From the NCBI RefSeq assembly GCF_900128895.1, contig NZ_FSQW01000001.1:1116001-1180000 (forward strand): a stretch of DNA of 64,000 nt, read 5' to 3'. Position numbers and translations under genes: made by a program. Each line of letters begins with the position of its first letter. The stretch's first letter is position 1. Origin of the DNA: Parasphingorhabdus marina DSM 22363. GTDB taxonomy: Bacteria > Pseudomonadota > Alphaproteobacteria > Sphingomonadales > Sphingomonadaceae. This document shows, in pieces, positions 1 to 54,495 of this stretch. The notes beneath the pieces were generated by a model. It was not told the origin of the DNA and did not search any database. It was given only the letters and a program-made list of their open reading frames with translations.

Positions 1-225
1 CATCGATGGCTGCAGCGGCGTGCGATAACCGGAACTTGTCGCCATGATCTGGCTCATCGATTTGCCCTGGTCGGTCATCGCCATGGCTTTTTCAAAATCG
101 AGATCGCGCGCCTTGTATCCGGGTGTTCCGGCATTGGCGATGTTGGAGGCGAGCATGTTGAGCCGCTGGGATCGCAAGGCGAGTGCGGTTCCGTGGATGC
201 CAAATATCTTGTCTGCACCGGGCAT
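1..225 (-). CDS. flgB: FlgB, flagellar basal-body proximal rod protein (5' part only)
   Basis: FlgB is an inner rod subunit exported by the flagellar type III apparatus. The visible 75 codons give the conserved rod N-terminus, with the motif NIANAGTPGYKARD at residues 28-41 that is typical of FlgB/FlgC/FlgG family proteins, followed by a region typical of FlgB. The gene runs off the left edge, so about half of the usual ~130 residues is missing. The ATG at 225 has an AGGA sequence about 12 bases upstream. A strong sigma-54 promoter lies upstream at 326-341 on the same strand, and the rest of the flg operon presumably continues beyond the window. Confidence 0.93.
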   Translation of the reverse strand, partial: MPGADKIFGIHGTALALRSQRLNMLASNIANAGTPGYKARDLDFEKAMAMTDQGKSMSQIMATSSGYRTPLQPSM

Positions 226-266: not shown

Positions 267-293
267 TAAATCTTTCGCTTCTCCCGCCGTTTT
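267..293 (+). promoter_or_regulatory. Sigma-28 (FliA) promoter for the motA-motB-like pair
   Basis: TAAA at 267-270, a 15-base spacer, then GCCGTTTT at 286-293. This fits the FliA consensus TAAA-N15-GCCGATAA and matches the sites before flgM, fliC and fliD in this window. The start codon is about 185 bases downstream, giving a long leader. Confidence 0.65.
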
Positions 294-325: not shown

Positions 326-341
326 TGCAAACGGTGTGCCA
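326..341 (-). promoter_or_regulatory. Sigma-54 promoter for flgB
   Basis: On the minus strand the site reads TGGCACACCGTTTGCA, with exactly ten bases between the GG and GC dinucleotides, as sigma-54 requires. The predicted start near 314 lies about 90 bases before the flgB ATG. Confidence 0.85.
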
Positions 342-477: not shown

Positions 478-1194
478 ATGCAGCAAAGTCTGACCAATGC
501 GATGGTGTTCGTGGATCCGCTGGCCCTGTGTCTGGTGGTGCTGGGAAGCCTCATTCTCGCCGGAACCCAGGAAGGGTGGCGCAGCTTCGCCAGTGCCATG
601 TCGGCTTTGCCCGTGGCATTCCGTAACGACCAGCATGCCGATGCCCAAATTGCCAAAGCGGCCGTGAAACGGGTCGAGCGCATGGTCGAAAAGCGGGGAA
701 TCTACACCGCGGACCGGGTCAAGGTGGATCCGCTGTTTGTCAAACAGGTAATCCGCGAAATGGCCAATCAGAAAAACCCGGCTGCTTTTCGTGACTGGGC
801 CATGAAAAATATTCACGAGCGCGAGGTCCGGCACGTTCCGGGCGCGCGATACTGGTCCACCGTTTCCGAGATTGCGCCAGCGCTTGGCATGATCGGTACC
901 GTGATTGGTCTGGTGCTGATGTTTGGCCATGTCGAAGATGCGGCGGCGATTGGCCGCGCGATGGCGGTGGCGATGCTGACCACATTATATGGCCTGCTTC
1001 TCGCCAATCTGATTGCCGGTCCGCTGGCCATCCGACTGGCCCGCGCCTCGGAAAGCGAGATTGCCTGGCAGCGGGAATTTGCCGAGGAACTGTGCCGGAT
1101 CGCCGAACGTGAATATCAAACCGGCCTTTCGGGCGTGGCGTCGCCGGTTTCCGGGCGCGGGTTCAGTCCCGATGGATTTAGCCAATGCGCCTGA
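478..1194 (+). CDS. MotA/TolQ/ExbB-family flagellar stator protein, N-terminally short
   Basis: This is probably the ion-channel subunit of the flagellar motor stator. The 238 residues show hydrophobic segments at about 9-29, 133-152 and 163-185. The last two carry the MotA-type pattern APALGMIGTVIGLV followed by LTTLYGLLLAN. MotA normally has four membrane segments, and the one ahead of the large cytoplasmic loop is single here: the first helix seems absent, giving a TolQ/ExbB-like topology. The ATG at 478 has GGGGCAGG upstream; the frame is open further 5' but shows no extra hydrophobic segment. It overlaps the MotB-like gene by 10 bases and is preceded by a sigma-28 promoter, as motA often is. 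TolQ/ExbB is the alternative, but the flagellar context favours MotA. Confidence 0.8.
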   Translation: MQQSLTNAMVFVDPLALCLVVLGSLILAGTQEGWRSFASAMSALPVAFRNDQHADAQIAKAAVKRVERMVEKRGIYTADRVKVDPLFVKQVIREMANQKNPAAFRDWAMKNIHEREVRHVPGARYWSTVSEIAPALGMIGTVIGLVLMFGHVEDAAAIGRAMAVAMLTTLYGLLLANLIAGPLAIRLARASESEIAWQREFAEELCRIAEREYQTGLSGVASPVSGRGFSPDGFSQCA

Positions 1195-1655
1195 TGCACC
1201 GGCCCCGCTGGCTGACGTCATTTCTGGATCTTGTGCTGATCATGCTGGGTGCCATGGCATTGCTGATTGCCAACAAGCTTGAGGGAAATCGCGTCCTTGA
1301 GGCCGTATCCGATACATTTGGCGGACCCGGCCTAGTGGCTTCACTGCCGCCTATGCCCGTTGACCAGATATTCGAAAACCAGGAAGCACGGCTGTCCGCC
1401 GAAGGCATCGTCCGGATACAGACGCTTTCCCGCCAGGTTTCAGAGAGTCAGAATATCGTCCACATCCGTGTTCCCGTCGAACAAACCCGGGAAGACCGGT
1501 TGCAGGGATGGGAACTGGCGGCGGCGAGGACGGCCTCGATTGCCTGGCAGCTGCGTCAAAATGGTGTGGCCGAAGACCGGATTGTACCTCGCATGCCAGA
1601 TTCTGCGGTGAGCGAAGGCCCTGCGCATGTCACGCTGGAGCTGCGCACGAAATAG
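1185..1655 (+). CDS. MotB-like stator partner with reduced OmpA-like domain
   Basis: Small (156 residues) partner of the MotA-like protein. A single membrane helix at about 12-30 contains Asp15 in the FLDLVL context, matching the proton-carrying aspartate of MotB. Residues ~60-140 resemble the C-terminal OmpA-like fold: a segment like FENQEARLSAEG, then GWELAAARTAS at 108-118, which aligns with the NWELSxxRA motif. The usual GHTD loop is not recognisable (HIRVPVEQ instead), and the protein is about half the length of MotB. The start overlaps the upstream stop codon region, so the two are translationally linked. The function as a stator anchor is inferred from pairing and motifs. Confidence 0.68.
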   Translation: MRLMHRPRWLTSFLDLVLIMLGAMALLIANKLEGNRVLEAVSDTFGGPGLVASLPPMPVDQIFENQEARLSAEGIVRIQTLSRQVSESQNIVHIRVPVEQTREDRLQGWELAAARTASIAWQLRQNGVAEDRIVPRMPDSAVSEGPAHVTLELRTK

Positions 1656-1731: not shown

Positions 1732-2256
1732 ATGATGCACATGGTCCGAACGACAATGACAGTTACCGCTGCCGCGCTGGCCCTGGTTTCCGGGCCCGCT
1801 GGCGCAGCCAGCCAGTTTCAGGACACGGCCGGTCTCGACCGGCTGGTTTCGGAGACAATCGGTGCTGAAATCGGTGAGCCAGGTGGAGCGAGAACGGCAG
1901 TAGACAATCGCCTGCGCCTCGCAACATGTCCGGCAGAACCGCGGGTAGAAGGCCCGGTATTTGGAGCGGCCATCGTTCGGTGTCCGGAGCTGGGCTGGCG
2001 CATAAGGGTGCCGCTCAACATGGATGCGCAGGGAAAATCCCGGGCAGCACAACCGGAGAAAGCCGAAATTCTGATCCGGCGGGGTCAGAATGTCATTCTG
2101 GTCTATCGCGGCGCGGGTTTTTCGCTCAGCAAGCAGATGATCGCGGATGAAAACGGGGCCATTGGCGACCTGATTGCCGTCCGCCAGGATCGCCGCAGTC
2201 CGCGGATTTTGGCCGAAGTCACGGGGAATGGGCAGGTCATTCTGCCGACCCCATAA
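1732..2256 (+). CDS. flgA: FlgA, P-ring assembly chaperone
   Basis: FlgA is a periplasmic chaperone that helps FlgI assemble the P-ring. The 174-residue product begins with a Sec signal peptide ending near GPAGAAS, and its last ~70 residues (LIRRGQNVILVYRGAG onward) form the SAF/FlgA C-terminal domain. ATGs at 1732, 1735 and 1741 are all possible; an ACGAGG sequence at 1721-1726 suits 1732 or 1735. It lies directly behind a sigma-54 promoter and leads into flgM. Confidence 0.85.
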   Translation: MMHMVRTTMTVTAAALALVSGPAGAASQFQDTAGLDRLVSETIGAEIGEPGGARTAVDNRLRLATCPAEPRVEGPVFGAAIVRCPELGWRIRVPLNMDAQGKSRAAQPEKAEILIRRGQNVILVYRGAGFSLSKQMIADENGAIGDLIAVRQDRRSPRILAEVTGNGQVILPTP

Positions 2257-2265
2257 ATTTTTTGT

Positions 2266-2292
2266 TAAAGAAATCCCGCGAGCGGCCGTTAT
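2266..2292 (+). promoter_or_regulatory. Sigma-28 promoter for flgM-flgN
   Basis: TAAA at 2266-2269, 15-base spacer, GCCGTTAT at 2285-2292. The flgM start codon follows after 36 bases. A FliA-dependent flgM promoter in addition to read-through from flgA is the usual arrangement for the anti-sigma factor. Confidence 0.8.
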
Positions 2293-2328: not shown

Positions 2329-2613
2329 ATGAAACCGATTTCGCAACAGGGAATTTCCGCCAGTGATCTGGCCCGGAATCTTGCTGCCCCGAAAGTCGCG
2401 AAAAGCGAAGGTCAGGGCGAAAAAGCCAAAACGGATCCGTCCCAGCCGGTCGTGCGCAGCGTGGCAGCCGAAATTGCCAGCCAGGGCGCACCGGTCAATG
2501 CAGAGCGAATTGCCATGATCAAGGCAGCGATTGCGGAAGGTCGTTATCCGGTTGATCCGGAAAAGATCGCCCAGCAGATGATCGCGCTGGATCTGGACAG
2601 CGGGCGGGACTGA
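2329..2613 (+). CDS. flgM: FlgM, anti-sigma-28 factor
   Basis: FlgM binds FliA and holds it inactive until the hook is finished and FlgM is exported. The 94 residues match the family's length and shape: a disordered, charged N-terminal half and a helical C-terminal half, with VNAERIAMIKAAIAEGRYPV at about 56-75 typical of the sigma-28-binding region. GGACACGAGCA precedes the ATG. Its TGA overlaps the ATG of the next gene. Two promoters feed it: sigma-54 through flgA and its own sigma-28 site. Confidence 0.9.
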   Translation: MKPISQQGISASDLARNLAAPKVAKSEGQGEKAKTDPSQPVVRSVAAEIASQGAPVNAERIAMIKAAIAEGRYPVDPEKIAQQMIALDLDSGRD

Positions 2614-2909
2614 TGGCTTCCCTCAATATTTCCGAGTTTGAAGCCGCGCAGCGCAATCTTGTGGCAGCGCTGGACGGCCATTCGGCCGACGAGATTCTGA
2701 TCTGTTGCGAAGAATTGCAGCAGGCATCGGATGACCTGCGCGCAAGAAGCGGGGGCTCCGACACTTCCCTGTCGCAAGAAAAAATCAGCGAGATCGAGGA
2801 GCTTAATCTCGCGGCTCGTTACCGGATCCGGTTCCTGCACGACATGTGCCGCGCGCGGATGTTCATGATCGCCAACCAGGGCGACAGCCAGACCTACAGC
2901 CCGCTTTGA
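2613..2909 (+). CDS. FlgN-like flagellar export chaperone
   Basis: A 98-residue, mostly helical protein starting at an ATG overlapping the flgM stop (TGATG). Position right after flgM, size and predicted coiled-coil character fit FlgN, the chaperone for the hook-filament junction proteins FlgK and FlgL. Sequence similarity in this family is weak, so the call leans mainly on context. Confidence 0.6.
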   Translation: MASLNISEFEAAQRNLVAALDGHSADEILICCEELQQASDDLRARSGGSDTSLSQEKISEIEELNLAARYRIRFLHDMCRARMFMIANQGDSQTYSPL

Positions 2910-2993: not shown

Positions 2994-3028
2994 TTTGATA
3001 TTCCCGAAGACAAATTTTGGGGAATATC

Positions 3029-3850
3029 ATGGCAAACATATCGGCAGCGGGGAGCATCGGTCACGACCGCGTGACCCGGGCGATTGCCAGTTCTGCCCAG
3101 CGTACCGGGGTGGATTTCAACTATCTCCTCGGACAGGCCAAAATCGAAAGCGGTCTGGATCCCCAGGCCAGGGCCCGGACCTCCAGTGCGACCGGACTGT
3201 TTCAGTTTATTGATCAAAGCTGGCTTGGCGTGATCGAAAAGCATGGCCACAAACATGGCCTCGACTGGGCGCGAGCGGCAATTTCCCAAAACAGCAGAGG
3301 CCGCTTTCAGGTTGCCGACAGCAGCCTGAAAAGCCAGATCCTGGACCTGCGCAAAAATCCCGAAATCGCGTCGCTGATGGCGGCGGAATTTGCGTCGGAC
3401 AACAAGGATTATCTGGAAGGCCGCCTTGGCAAACGCGCCGCTCCGGTGGACCTGTATCTCGCCCATTTTCTCGGTCCTGCCGGTGCGCGAAAATTCCTGT
3501 CTTTGCACGAGCGCAATCCCGACGGTGCCGCGGCACCGCACATGATGCGGGCAGCCGGTGCCAACAAATCGATTTTCTATACCACAGGCGGCGCTCCGCG
3601 CAGCTTTGACGAAATCCGGCAAAGATTTGCCGCCAAGCTGGAACGGTTCTCACCGGGCGTGGAGGCTCATCGGCCTTCCGCTCCCGGCGGGGAATCTTCT
3701 CCTGTCACCAACACCGTCCAACCTGCCGATTATGTCCGGCTGGCCAGCCAGCGTGCTGCCCGGCCGGTGGCAGCTTCGACCCCGACCTACAATGAAAGTG
3801 CACATATGGCCTACATGCTTCTCGCCTCTCTCGGAGCGACACCCCGATGA
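3029..3850 (+). CDS. SLT-type lytic transglycosylase in the flhA operon
   Basis: Predicted peptidoglycan-cleaving enzyme that could open the wall for the rod. Of 273 residues the first ~170 carry an SLT fold: catalytic Glu40 in AKIESGLDP, then ATGLFQFIDQSW. The C-terminal ~100 residues are proline- and alanine-rich without a recognised domain. There is no Sec signal peptide, which would fit export through the flagellar machinery, as for FlgJ; this is inference. The ATG at 3029 follows GGGGAATATC; an upstream TTG at 3017 is less likely. The stop overlaps the flhA start (ATGA). Confidence 0.8.
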   Translation: MANISAAGSIGHDRVTRAIASSAQRTGVDFNYLLGQAKIESGLDPQARARTSSATGLFQFIDQSWLGVIEKHGHKHGLDWARAAISQNSRGRFQVADSSLKSQILDLRKNPEIASLMAAEFASDNKDYLEGRLGKRAAPVDLYLAHFLGPAGARKFLSLHERNPDGAAAPHMMRAAGANKSIFYTTGGAPRSFDEIRQRFAAKLERFSPGVEAHRPSAPGGESSPVTNTVQPADYVRLASQRAARPVAASTPTYNESAHMAYMLLASLGATPR

Positions 3851-32491: not shown

Positions 32492-32515
32492 AATTGATTG
32501 ATTAAATCATCAATT
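32492..32515. promoter_or_regulatory. Palindromic site between the LuxR-type gene and the monooxygenase pair
   Basis: AATTGAT arms at 32492-32498 and 32509-32515 (ATCAATT), with an inner GATT/AATC pair, giving an almost fully symmetrical 24-base site. It lies about 55 bases ahead of the first monooxygenase start codon. Candidate operator; the binding protein is unknown. Confidence 0.5.
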
Positions 32516-32567
32516 GCCAGCGCCCGCTCCGGATGGCATAAGTCTGGAAAAACCGGGAGAGACGGTC

Positions 32568-34109
32568 ATGGCGACTCATATCGCTGAAAATGCAGGTGCA
32601 GAACTGGAAGCAGCTCCGCAATCGGTGGATGTCCTTATCGTGGGAGCCGGTATTTCCGGTATCGGCATGGCGGTACATCTGCGTAACAAATGTCCGGGCA
32701 AGAGCTTCGCCCTGCTGGAACGGCGCGACGATATCGGCGGGACATGGAACCTGTTCCAGTATCCCGGTATCCGCTCCGACAGTGACATGCACACGCTCGG
32801 GTTCAACTTCGAGCCCTGGACGGAACAGAAGGCGATTGCCGACGGTCCCTCGATCATCAACTATCTCCATCGGATCAAGGCGAAGCATGATCTCGAGAAG
32901 CACATCCATTTCGGACACAAGGTACTGTCGGCCAGCTGGTCAAGCGAGGATGCACGCTGGACGGTGACGGCGGAAAAAGCCGATGGCAGCACCACCGTCA
33001 TGCAGGCCGGTTTCATTTATATGGGCGCCGGCTATTATGACTATGACAATCCCTATGATGCCCAGATCGAAGGACTGCAGTCATTCAAGGGAGACGTGCT
33101 GCATCCGCAATTCTGGCCACAGGATTATGACTATGCGGGAAAGAAAGTGGTCATCATCGGCAGCGGCGCGACGGCCGTGACGATCGTACCGGTCATGGCA
33201 GAGACAGCAGAGCATGTCACGATGCTGCAGCGGACACCGACCTGGTATGCGGCGCGCCCGGCCAAGGACTGGCTGGCCAACACATTGCGCAAGATCATGC
33301 CGGAAAGCTGGGCCTACAAGATCATCCGCAAGAAAAATGTCTGGATGCAGGATCTGACTTTCCGTACCGCTCGGGACAAGCCGGAGAAAGTCATCAAAAA
33401 GCTCGAAAAGCCGATGAAACGGGAGCTTGGCGACAAATATAACAAGGAAGACTACACGCCGCCTTACGGGCCCTGGGAGCAAAGGCTGTGCCTGGTGCCC
33501 GACAGCGACATGTTCAAGGCCATCGCCTCCGGCAAGGCGGATGTAAAAACCGGCCATATCGAGACCGTGACCGAAACCGGGGTGAAACTGAAATCCGGCG
33601 AGGAACTGGAGGCGGATATCATCGTGACAGCCACCGGACTGAAGCTGGCCGTGGCGGGCAAGGTGGCATTTGAAGTCGATGGCAAGCCGATACACTGGCC
33701 GGATCACTATTATTACAAAGGCTGCATGTTCTCCGACATTCCGAACATGGCAATCGTATTCGGCTATCTCAATGCGAGCTGGACGCTCAAGGCGGACATC
33801 GTATCCGAATATGTCTGCCGGGTGATCAACCACATGGACGCTACCAGTACCCGGATTGCCAATCCGAAACTGGAATCCGAGCTGGAACAGGAAGAATTGT
33901 TCGACTTTTCTTCCGGCTATATCCGGCGGTCCATCAATGAACTGCCGCGCAACAGCACAGCGATGCCGTGGAAGCTCAATCAGGATTATCTGTTCGACAA
34001 GAAAGTGCTGCTCAACGAGCCGGTCGATGACGGTGTGATGCGGTTCTATGGCCCGAACAGTGCGGGGAATGTCGCGGACGCAGGCGAGGCGCTGGAAGCA
34101 GCGGAATAA
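32568..34109 (+). CDS. Baeyer-Villiger-type flavin monooxygenase (copy 1)
   Basis: Class B flavoprotein that uses FAD, NADPH and O2 to insert oxygen beside a ketone or oxidise a heteroatom; the substrate is unknown. Within 513 residues: FAD-binding GAGISGIGMA near 24, GGTWNLFQYPGIRSDSDM near 58, the BVMO fingerprint FKGDVLHPQFWP and the NADPH-binding GSGATAVT. ATG at 32568 follows GGGAGAGACGG. A second copy of similar sequence follows 53 bases downstream, so the two are probably one operon. Confidence 0.9.
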   Translation: MATHIAENAGAELEAAPQSVDVLIVGAGISGIGMAVHLRNKCPGKSFALLERRDDIGGTWNLFQYPGIRSDSDMHTLGFNFEPWTEQKAIADGPSIINYLHRIKAKHDLEKHIHFGHKVLSASWSSEDARWTVTAEKADGSTTVMQAGFIYMGAGYYDYDNPYDAQIEGLQSFKGDVLHPQFWPQDYDYAGKKVVIIGSGATAVTIVPVMAETAEHVTMLQRTPTWYAARPAKDWLANTLRKIMPESWAYKIIRKKNVWMQDLTFRTARDKPEKVIKKLEKPMKRELGDKYNKEDYTPPYGPWEQRLCLVPDSDMFKAIASGKADVKTGHIETVTETGVKLKSGEELEADIIVTATGLKLAVAGKVAFEVDGKPIHWPDHYYYKGCMFSDIPNMAIVFGYLNASWTLKADIVSEYVCRVINHMDATSTRIANPKLESELEQEELFDFSSGYIRRSINELPRNSTAMPWKLNQDYLFDKKVLLNEPVDDGVMRFYGPNSAGNVADAGEALEAAE

Positions 34110-34162: not shown

Positions 34163-35668
34163 ATGGAAACTGAAAAACTGGACGTGTTGATTGTTGGTGC
34201 CGGCTTGTCCGGCATTGGCGCGGCGGTGCATTTGACGAAGCGCTGCCCGGGGAAAAGCTATGCAATTGTCGAGGCGCGCGAGCGGCTGGGCGGGACATGG
34301 GATCTGTTCCGTTATCCCGGCATCCGTTCGGACAGCGACATGTACACGCTGGGCTATAACTTCAAACCGTGGACATCGCGTCAGGCGATTGCCGATGGTC
34401 CGAACATCATGGAATATCTTCACGAGACGGTGGCGGAATATGATGTCGCCCCGAAGATTCGCTACGAGCGCAAGGTCGTGGGTGCGAGCTGGTCGAGTGA
34501 TAGGGCCGAATGGACCGTCCGGCTGGCCCATGGCGATGGCAGCAGCAGCGAGATTCGCTGCAATTTTCTGTTCATGTGCTCGGGATATTACAGTTACGAC
34601 GAGGTGCATGATCCCCATTTCGAAGGACGCGAGGATTTCGAAGGGCAGATTGTACATCCGCAATTCTGGCCAGAAGATCTGGACTATGCGGGCAAGAAAG
34701 TTGTCGTCATCGGAAGCGGCGCGACGGCCGTGACCGTGGTTCCGGCGATGGCCGAGACCGCAGGCCATGTGACCATGTTGCAGCGCTCGCCCAGCTATGT
34801 CGCGTCACGGCCGGGCGAGGACAAGTTCGCTTTGGCATTGCGGAAAATCCTGCCGGCGAAAGCGGCCTATCTGATCACCCGCTGGCGCAACGTGCTCTAT
34901 CAGTTGTTCACCTTCAATCTGGCGCGCAAAAGACCGAAGATGGTGCGCGGCAAATTGCTGGAAATGGTTCGGGAAGAGCTGGGTCCGGACTATGACATGA
35001 CTCATTTCACGCCGCGCTATAATCCCTGGGACGAACGGCTCTGTGCAGTGCCGGACAGTGACCTGTTCAATGTCATCAAATCCGGCCAGGCTTCTGTGGT
35101 CACCGATCATATCGACCGCTTCACGCCCGATGGTATTTTTCTGAAATCGGGCAAGCAGCTGGACGCCGACATCATCGTGACGGCCACCGGACTGAAATTG
35201 CAAACCGGCGGATCAGCAGAGTTTGACGTGGATGGCGAAACGGTCAATTTCGCCGAGACGGTGAATTACAAGGGTGTCATGTTCTCCGGTGTTCCCAATC
35301 TCGGGATGACGATGGGCTATACCAACAGCAGCTGGACGCTGAAGGCGGATCTCACGAGCGAATATCTCTGCCGGGTGATCAACCTGATGGACCGCAAGGG
35401 ATATGACAGCGCGACACCGACCCTGCCAGCGGAAGGCATCGAACTCGAGCCACTGCTGGACTTTACCTCTGGCTATGTCCAGCGTGCCCTTTCCCAGCTT
35501 CCCAAGCAGGGTGACCGCAAACCTTGGCGACTCAACCAGAATTATCCCAAGGATATCATCAATCTGCGGCACCGGACGATCGAGGACGAGGCACTGGTTT
35601 TCGGCAAGGCGCGAAAGTCGAAGTCAGAGCCTTCGGACAGCGCGAGCCGCGAAGCCGTCGCCGCCTGA
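34163..35668 (+). CDS. Baeyer-Villiger-type flavin monooxygenase (copy 2)
   Basis: A 501-residue paralogue of the upstream enzyme. FAD motif GAGLSGIGAA at 11-20, GGTWDLFRYPGIRSDSDM, the fingerprint FEGQIVHPQFWP and the NADPH motif GSGATAVT are all retained. Long blocks are nearly identical to copy 1 (for example the HPQFWP...DYAGKKV region and TATGLKL), so this is a tandem duplication with divergence in substrate-facing parts. The C-terminus ends in a charged, serine-rich tail. Confidence 0.9.
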   Translation: METEKLDVLIVGAGLSGIGAAVHLTKRCPGKSYAIVEARERLGGTWDLFRYPGIRSDSDMYTLGYNFKPWTSRQAIADGPNIMEYLHETVAEYDVAPKIRYERKVVGASWSSDRAEWTVRLAHGDGSSSEIRCNFLFMCSGYYSYDEVHDPHFEGREDFEGQIVHPQFWPEDLDYAGKKVVVIGSGATAVTVVPAMAETAGHVTMLQRSPSYVASRPGEDKFALALRKILPAKAAYLITRWRNVLYQLFTFNLARKRPKMVRGKLLEMVREELGPDYDMTHFTPRYNPWDERLCAVPDSDLFNVIKSGQASVVTDHIDRFTPDGIFLKSGKQLDADIIVTATGLKLQTGGSAEFDVDGETVNFAETVNYKGVMFSGVPNLGMTMGYTNSSWTLKADLTSEYLCRVINLMDRKGYDSATPTLPAEGIELEPLLDFTSGYVQRALSQLPKQGDRKPWRLNQNYPKDIINLRHRTIEDEALVFGKARKSKSEPSDSASREAVAA

Positions 35669-53200: not shown

Positions 53201-53776
53201 ATGCGTTTTTCCCCCAAAGTGCTTTTCGCGTCTGCTGCGATTGTCGCCCTGGCTGCCTGTTCTTCCGAGGCGCCGGAGGCTGCTGTCGATGACACGGCAA
53301 CCGAGGAAGCGGCGACGGAAGCCCCGGCCGCGGCTACCATTGTCGAAGTGGCCCAGGGCAATGAGAATTTTTCGACATTGGTGACGGCCGTTGTCGCTGC
53401 TGATCTCGGTGAGACATTGAGCAGTGATGGTCCGTTCACGGTATTTGCACCCACCAATGATGCGTTTGAAAAGGTTGACGGTGACACATTGTCCGCTTTG
53501 CTGACCCCGGAAATGAAGGATGATCTGACGGGTCTGCTGACCTATCACGTCGTTGCTGGCGAGCTGAAAGCGGCAGATGTGGTTCAGGCCATTACCGACG
53601 GTGGTGGCACGGCGACTCTGACCACCGTACAGGGTGCGCCGCTGAAGGCCACGCTCGACGGTGAGAGCGTCATTCTGGAAGATGCAGCCGGCGGCAAGTC
53701 GACTGTGATCATGACTGATGTGGAAGCGTCCAACGGCGTGATCCACGCGATCGATACCGTGATCATGCCAGGTTAG
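53201..53776 (+). CDS. Fasciclin-domain lipoprotein (copy 1)
   Basis: A 191-residue exported protein. The signal has lipobox LAAC (Cys20), then an alanine/glutamate-rich linker, then one FAS1 domain at ~50-190 with DGPFTVFAPTNDAFEKV and LLTYHVVAGELKAADV, ending GVIHAIDTVIMPG. FAS1 domains mediate adhesion to surfaces or polysaccharides. A similar gene follows, each with its own terminator. Confidence 0.9.
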   Translation: MRFSPKVLFASAAIVALAACSSEAPEAAVDDTATEEAATEAPAAATIVEVAQGNENFSTLVTAVVAADLGETLSSDGPFTVFAPTNDAFEKVDGDTLSALLTPEMKDDLTGLLTYHVVAGELKAADVVQAITDGGGTATLTTVQGAPLKATLDGESVILEDAAGGKSTVIMTDVEASNGVIHAIDTVIMPG

Positions 53777-53922: not shown

Positions 53923-54495
53923 ATGAAGAAGCTGTCCAAAATTTTGCTCGCGACTGCTGCGCTGACCGCCATGTCTGCCTGCTCGTCGGAGCTCAGCGAA
54001 AGTGAGCAGGCGGTTCTGGATGCCCGGCTGGCCGAAGAAGCCGCCAAACCGACCAATCTGACCGCGCTGATGCAGGCCAATCCCGACCTGTCGACAGCCG
54101 CTCTCGCCGTGGGTCAGTCCGGCATCGCCCAGGAACTCAAGGACGACGGTCCGTTTACCTCCTTCATCGCTCCCAATGAAGCTTTCAAGAAAATGGAAGA
54201 TGGCCGACTCGAGGAACTGATGACTCCTGAAAAAAAGGATGAGCTGGCGGGAATCGCGAAATATGGAATGCTCAACGGCAGTATGACAACAGCCGATATT
54301 GCCAAGGCAATCACCGACGGTGGTGGTACAGCGGAACTGACAACGCTTCAGGGCGGCGTGATCAAGGCAAGCATGGACGGCGACAAGGTCGTGCTGGAAG
54401 ACGGGGCCGGAAACAAGGTGAACTTTGTGGAACCCGATATTGAGTCGAGTAATGGTACGATGCACATCGTCGACACAGTGCTGATGCCGAGCTGA
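53923..54495 (+). CDS. Fasciclin-domain lipoprotein (copy 2)
   Basis: A 190-residue lipoprotein with lipobox MSAC (Cys20) and one FAS1 domain (DGPFTSFIAPNEAFKKME, then AITDGGGTAELTTLQGG and GTMHIVDTVLMPS). It is the paralogue of the preceding protein; the C-terminal half is closely similar while the first half of the domain has drifted (LAGIAKYGMLNGSM replaces the LTYHVVAGE element). Confidence 0.9.
   Translation: MKKLSKILLATAALTAMSACSSELSESEQAVLDARLAEEAAKPTNLTALMQANPDLSTAALAVGQSGIAQELKDDGPFTSFIAPNEAFKKMEDGRLEELMTPEKKDELAGIAKYGMLNGSMTTADIAKAITDGGGTAELTTLQGGVIKASMDGDKVVLEDGAGNKVNFVEPDIESSNGTMHIVDTVLMPS

Follow-up and report, generated by a model that had tools for sequence, protein, structure and literature searches.

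The flagellar gene cluster in the 64-kb stretch of DNA analysed here (hereafter the window) carries, between flgB and flgA, a short pair of MotA/MotB-like genes, motA-s and motB-s, and we propose, with a probability of about 0.5 and from sequence comparison and predicted structures, that they code for an accessory mini-stator: an ion-driven 5:2 complex added to the MotAB motor and lacking a conventional wall clamp. The pair retains what it would need to pass ions through a ring of MotA subunits enclosing two MotB helices; lost or loosely kept, judging from alignments and models, are the outer one of the membrane helices, the wall clamp and, in a more diverged form of the pair (type II), the acid on the torque side. 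An earlier note on this DNA had described an unusually small MotA/MotB-like pair, divergent from flgB behind a sigma-28-type site; both open reading frames prove to be real, and the site is among the three best in the window and recurs in relatives (Table 1).

Table 1. Features of the short pair and its neighbourhood (positions in the window unless given as residues)
Feature	Position	Strand	Remarks
flgB, 5' part	1..225	-	Gene runs past the window edge; identified by phmmer in all fetched loci
Divergent flgBCDEFGHI(J)KL-motA-motB operon, flgB being its first gene			Operon read in the adjacent upstream region (L006)
Sigma-28-type promoter-like site TAAATCTT-N11-GCCGTTTT, for the short pair	267..293	+	Score 21
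Sigma-54-type promoter-like site TGGCACACCGTTTGCA, for flgB	326..341	-	Consensus match
motA-s	478..1194	+	Three-helix PomA-like MotA; 238 aa, ATG at 478
Predicted membrane helices of motA-s	residues 14-32, ~132-150, 162-180		TM1 absent
Codons D79-R80 of motA-s	712..717	+	D79 aligned with torque residue E98 (E. coli MotA) / E96 (PomA)
motB-s	1185..1655	+	156 aa; one membrane helix, plug-like helix, small OmpA-like domain
Asp15 codon of motB-s	1227..1229	+	Ion-binding Asp
WELAAAR motif of motB-s, residues 109-115	1509..1529	+	Wall-binding Arg115 kept
flgA (P-ring chaperone), 3' of the short pair	1732..2256	+	ChapFlgA E 2e-10; conserved neighbour
Second sigma-28-type site TAAAGAAA-N11-GCCGTTAT, ahead of flgM	2266..2292	+	Consensus scan
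flgM-like gene (anti-sigma-28)	2329..2613	+	Named by position, size and conserved order
flgN-like gene	2613..2909	+	Named by position, size and conserved order

The reading frames of motA-s and motB-s overlap by 10 bases. Our sigma-28-type scan covered the whole 64-kb window with a score tuned to the consensus, and its sites are consensus matches, that is, putative promoters; three score 20 or more (267-293, 2266 ahead of flgM, and 21602), and a consensus scan places a sigma-28-type site ahead of the long motA as well. In most of 30 homologous loci such a site lies near -190 to -245 of motA-s, and these recurring sites usually score at or above the best of 40 shuffles. On the opposite strand, a sigma-54-type TGGCA(C/T)-N5-TTGC for flgB is found in all 30 loci, with scores of 13-15 against 12-13 for the best shuffles. 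Between flgN and flhA, the flagellar cluster also includes a weak lytic transglycosylase (SLT) match (window 3017-3850). Farther along the window lie two sets of adjacent, similar open reading frames, both named by eye: 32514-34109 and 34163-35668 are FAD-dependent (Baeyer-Villiger-type) monooxygenase-like, and the paralogous 53201-53776 and 53923-54495 are fasciclin-domain lipoprotein-like.

MotA-s matches Pfam MotA_ExbB with an E value of 3.7e-22. An NCBIfam scan of the short pair gave no model over its cut-off for either protein, the best partial matches being PomA for MotA-s (E 1e-32) and MotD for MotB-s (E 3e-5). Both sequence and predicted fold place MotA-s with PomA and not with ExbB/TolQ: its profile match to PomA has an E value of 1.7e-43, and Foldseek superimposes the model on PomA with a TM score of 0.77 at 2.1 Å, against about 0.5 for ExbB. 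Descent from an ExbB/TolQ-type transporter is unsupported either by profile (TolQ E 0.5) or by fold (ExbB at ~6.7 Å).

The three hydrophobic segments previously reported for the MotA-like protein are borne out by hydropathy, with peaks starting at residues 10, 132 and 162 (a minor peak of 1.11 at residue 146 falls within one of the predicted helices), and by an AlphaFold2 single-chain model built with 29 homologues (mean pLDDT 91); neither gives a four-helix topology. The model has long helices at 14-32, 101-150 and 155-215 and short loop helices at 34-42, 44-48, 52-73, 75-80 and 86-97, and the missing helix is the first one (TM1) of an ordinary MotA. In an alignment of 47 type I and 34 type II short MotAs, with a membrane-stretch threshold of 1.6, TM1 is absent from all 81: 31 have fewer than 17 residues ahead of the second helix even when the open frame is taken in full, and the remaining 50 have no membrane-like stretch there, one of them giving a borderline value (1.63 against the threshold of 1.6). 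TM1 is present in 50 of 50 MotAs from outside the Sphingomonadaceae and in 47 of 48 long MotAs within the family. We rejected a wrong start codon as the cause, the longest in-frame extension (TTG at 361) having no membrane segment and the stretch upstream of motA-s holding promoter-like sites. Lacking TM1, MotA-s would have its N-terminus outside and its large loop in the cytoplasm, as in ExbB/TolQ, and the charge pattern agrees with this orientation (18 basic residues in the loop, 0 in the N-terminus).

Several positions are nearly fixed among the short MotAs, with P134 and P182 in all 81 and T141 in 80. Position 79 is D or E in all 47 type I sequences and R80 is present in 42 of them, and D79-R80 is invariant in the 29 aligned homologues; D79 is replaced in more than half of the type II sequences. 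At the position equivalent to the torque-side Arg (R90), a basic residue is not conserved among the short MotAs.

MotB-s gives a weak match to Pfam OmpA (21.6 bits, under the cut-off of 27.2). Its Asp15, already recognized as a helix residue, lies within a predicted membrane helix (9-31) and is invariant, both in 29 aligned homologues and in 30 of 30 type I sequences, as the equivalent residue is in 52 of 52 long MotBs. The earlier description of a shrunken OmpA-like domain without a GHTD loop holds for the loop, which is found in none of 30 aligned type I MotB-s and in 52 of 52 long MotBs, and needs refining for the domain itself. A model of MotB-s (mean pLDDT 85.5) predicts a small but complete OmpA-like core as well as a plug-like helix at 34-44, its best fold matches being OmpA-like and MotB periplasmic domains, and the reduction in size falls mostly in the linker; Asp and core are separated by 47 residues, a third of the 140 in long MotBs.

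The Asn ahead of the conserved Trp follows the same pattern as the loop (0 of 30 type I MotB-s against 52 of 52 long MotBs), and the WELAAAR motif of type I retains its Arg in 30 of 30 and its Trp in 29 of 30. In OmpA-like domains an Asp and an Arg hold diaminopimelate; with the GHTD Asp lost and the Arg kept, half of this clamp is therefore gone in type I. Type II MotBs keep the membrane Asp, and their periplasmic part has lost WELAAAR too. In L112, L113, L114 and L191-L227, this type II part is about 100 residues long, has no OmpA motifs and bears a conserved DPRQ-like motif of its own. A further variant was seen in a 2.1-Mb genome with Zymomonas-like gene order (L100:13047-16519), where an insert of ~60 residues parts the helix of MotB-s from its core, and transposase-like open reading frames separate motB-s from flgA.

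The short pair coexists with a conventional stator. Four MotA_ExbB proteins and one strong MotB_plug protein are encoded in the genome, and a full-length motA/motB (287 and 303 aa, GHTD present) ends the adjacent flg operon, ~9 kb upstream of the window; the long MotA passes the NCBIfam MotA1 cut-off (TIGR03818, 335 bits). By BLASTP, MotA-s is 27% identical to its own long MotA over 95 residues only, a similarity that gives no support to motA-s as a recent duplicate of the long gene, and MotB-s has no significant match to its own long MotB. A separate long MotB match is also found in 45 of the 46 type I genomes, the exception being a fragmented draft (G144), and with a long MotB alongside in nearly all of them the short pair is best seen as an addition to the canonical stator; type II genomes were chosen for having a long MotB and are uninformative on coexistence. 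FliG was found in 130 of 200 Sphingomonadaceae genomes. Three loci (L104, L115 and L116) have a second type of long motA and motB; these genes are not adjacent but separated by 3-7 kb, and they probably belong to a second flagellar system.

Comparison by HMM and genome context with other Sphingomonadales, as had been suggested, found the short pair between flgB and flgA in 80 of 105 Sphingomonadaceae junctions read and missing from 25, in a non-random sample of genomes selected for a long MotB. Short MotB as a single query was found in 41 of 200 Sphingomonadaceae genomes, a figure that is too low because one query sequence missed diverged forms; a profile search raised it to 46, counting full-span or insert-split matches only and leaving out the remaining rows of the profile table, which are OmpA or long MotB domains. 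Type II was recognized in 34 genomes by reading the flgB-flgA junctions, with one visibly eroded copy (L190). Relatives without the short pair keep flgA and the remaining cluster, and some flagellated lineages do without it. At two such junctions (L185:6279-7738 and L186:4144-5600), the place between flgB and flgA is taken by two unrelated secreted-protein-like open reading frames, possibly FlgP/FlgT-like.

Among the best matches of a search of 385 genomes across the class, full-length relatives of the short pair occur in the Sphingomonadales only, with no full-span relative outside the family; in other alphaproteobacterial families, the best-scoring places are just OmpA-domain or ordinary MotB matches. 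A pattern scan of named genomes returned at least 38 loci, and flgB, MotA-s, MotB-s and flgA stand together in 31 of those listed, including Sphingobium sp. SYK-6 (L252) and Sphingomonas sp. Root720; the other listed loci are one Sphingobium locus at a contig edge and six longer gammaproteobacterial MotB-type proteins. No plasmid copies of the short pair were found.

A MotA tree recovers the long MotAs, the outside MotAs and the type II proteins as single groups and splits type I into two parts, one of them beside type II. A constraint that unites types I and II is not rejected (p 0.72) and has a slightly higher likelihood; nor is one that unites the short MotAs with the long MotAs of the family (p 0.67). 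dN/dS is 0.06-0.6, below 1 in 15 of 15 within-family pairs (several of them with high dS), and both genes are therefore under purifying selection. Across ten genomes that have both proteins, MotA-s has a median pairwise identity of 29% and the long MotA one of 69%, with the short protein the less conserved in 45 of 45 pairs. The ion-path residues are the stable part of this fast-evolving MotA-s.

In the mechanism that we envisage, MotA-s and MotB-s, probably in five and two copies, would assemble into an ion-driven 5:2 unit of the PomA/MotA class. Under sigma-28 control it would be produced at a late stage of flagellar assembly, and it would join a motor driven mainly by the canonical MotAB. 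Ions would pass via Asp15 and turn the ring, MotA-s would touch FliG through its cytoplasmic loop at D79, and MotB-s might be held by a motor component (the earlier note thought of FliL or another partner), or weakly by the wall, in place of the diaminopimelate clamp. The mini-stator would tune torque or load response and would not be needed for basic rotation. The predicted PomA-like fold without TM1, the helical region modelled at the torque interface, the channel residues, the fixed position among flagellar genes and the coexisting MotAB all speak for this proposal, as do the acidic residue 79 of type I, the conserved sigma-28-type site and the dN/dS values. Speaking against it are the fast evolution, the lack of conservation at the R90 equivalent and the replacement of D79 in over half of type II; a unit without a wall clamp might also freewheel and give no torque. 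A bolder reading, which we consider less likely, is that the pair is a stator-class motor without TM1 or the standard clamp that works in the same motor as MotAB, either through another anchor or, with no anchor at all, as a gear or clutch.

Several other roles have to be weighed against an accessory mini-stator. The short pair could be a flagellum-linked energy transducer that, like ExbBD/TolQR, moves MotB-s onto a periplasmic partner, for example in P-ring or rod assembly near FlgA. Three predicted helices with the N-terminus outside and proteins of 238 and 156 aa recall ExbB/TolQ with ExbD/TolR, the genes stand in an operon-like run with flgA, and the ion path is kept and the wall clamp lost. 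We nevertheless think such a transducer unlikely, MotA-s being PomA-like and not ExbB/TolQ-like in sequence and fold, with an unbroken TM3; moreover, the sigma-28-type site suggests expression once the P-ring is built, and flgA and the rest of the cluster are kept in relatives without the pair. A regulator or decoy, in which MotA-s or MotB-s mixes or competes with the long MotA and MotB and lowers or adjusts stator activity, strikes us as rather improbable. The sigma-28-type sites ahead of both pairs would allow co-production, and MotB-s retains the Asp and a plug-like helix, but the two MotAs are very distant in sequence, the two MotBs have no significant match, and the co-occurrence of MotA-s and MotB-s across loci suggests that they pair with each other.

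About equally improbable, in our view, is that the pair is what remains of an older PomA-type stator in decay, partly kept by chance. Fast divergence, the 25 of 105 junctions without the pair, the eroded copy in L190 and the stepwise disappearance, from type I to type II, of residues for wall binding and torque would all fit decay; against it stand reading frames that are intact in nearly all loci, the dN/dS values, ion-path residues that are invariant across the family and a conserved promoter motif. The earlier note's own version, a lineage-specific minimal stator driving the motor alone, drew on position, the sigma-28-type site and the channel residues, and its account of a reduced, lineage-specific pair with a conserved ion path stands; as the only stator of the cell, however, the short pair is ruled out by the full-length motA/motB in the genome. 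That note had itself named a second, full-length pair elsewhere, with the short one dispensable for motility, as evidence that would count against it; the first half of this is borne out, as the full-length genes belong to the same cluster and close the adjacent flg operon. Together with the separate long MotB in 45 of 46 type I genomes (the fragmented draft aside) and the 25 or more flagellated relatives that share the gene order but have no short pair, which points against the pair as the motor's stator, this makes a stator acting alone very improbable.

The short pair is of interest because the cluster conserves a pair without four MotA helices or an expanded wall-binding domain beside a normal stator. 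Should it give torque, it would show which parts of a stator are dispensable; should it give none, it would serve as a natural experiment on the parts required just for torque and wall anchoring.

We found no paper on the short pair in the open literature, a scope that excludes most subscription journals. One table of PMC9797736 lists a Zymomonas mobilis pair beside flgL as motA1/motB1, a label which suggests that a second pair had already been noticed in annotation. A 2025 survey (PMC12505986) separates flagellar stators (its FIT group) from non-flagellar relatives by four MotA helices and an expanded MotB wall-binding domain; in its flagellar stators the A subunit combines a four-helix square fold with an interface of four or more helices and a continuous TM3 (a Glu-Pro motif is named too), and the B subunit has a plug, a long linker and an expanded peptidoglycan-binding OmpA-like domain. 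MotA-s has three helices by hydropathy and model in place of the square fold, five predicted interface helices (counted from secondary structure) and a continuous TM3 in the single predicted helix 101-150. MotB-s has the predicted plug-like helix at 34-44, yet only 47 residues against 140 from Asp to core, which puts it midway as regards plug and linker, and its small core has kept the Arg and lost GHTD and Asn, in place of an expanded domain. By family, the best profile match of MotA-s is a flagellar A subunit of the PomA/MotA type, MotB-s has the ion-binding Asp in a single membrane helix that marks the MotB family, and MotA-s shows neither the broken TM3 nor the ExbB/TolQ-type A subunit of ExbBD/TolQR. 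The short pair is therefore not filed as a regular FIT-group member, though its sequence falls in the PomA/MotA family.

Among individual systems, Vibrio PomAB (TGI4-type) resembles the short pair in that MotA-s aligns with PomA residues 24-224 (E 1.7e-43, 2.1 Å) and that both systems have the T and P residues in TM3/TM4 as well as the FADL..LL..FFVLL-like helix of PomB; unlike PomAB, the short pair has no TM1, no GHTD and no R88/K89-like basic pair, and its MotB linker is short (MotB/PomB have ~315-321 aa and MotB-s 156). ExbBD/TolQR, generic 5:2 ion transporters, are similar in helix number, protein sizes and predicted N-out topology, but differ in that TM3 of MotA-s is unbroken, its match to TolQ is poor (E 0.5), its fold fits less well, and the domain of MotB-s is OmpA-like, unlike the B domain of ExbD/TolR. 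The genome's own canonical MotAB, which is of the MotA1 type, shares with the short pair the flagellar cluster, an upstream sigma-28-type site and the membrane Asp, whereas it has four membrane helices, GHTD and Asn. MotCD and MotPS of the dual-stator motors of Pseudomonas and Bacillus are likewise a second pair beside MotAB; the short pair has weak matches to the MotD and MotS models and a sigma-28-type site. These second stators are full-length and wall-anchored, two traits that the short pair, as judged from its sequence and models, appears to lack.
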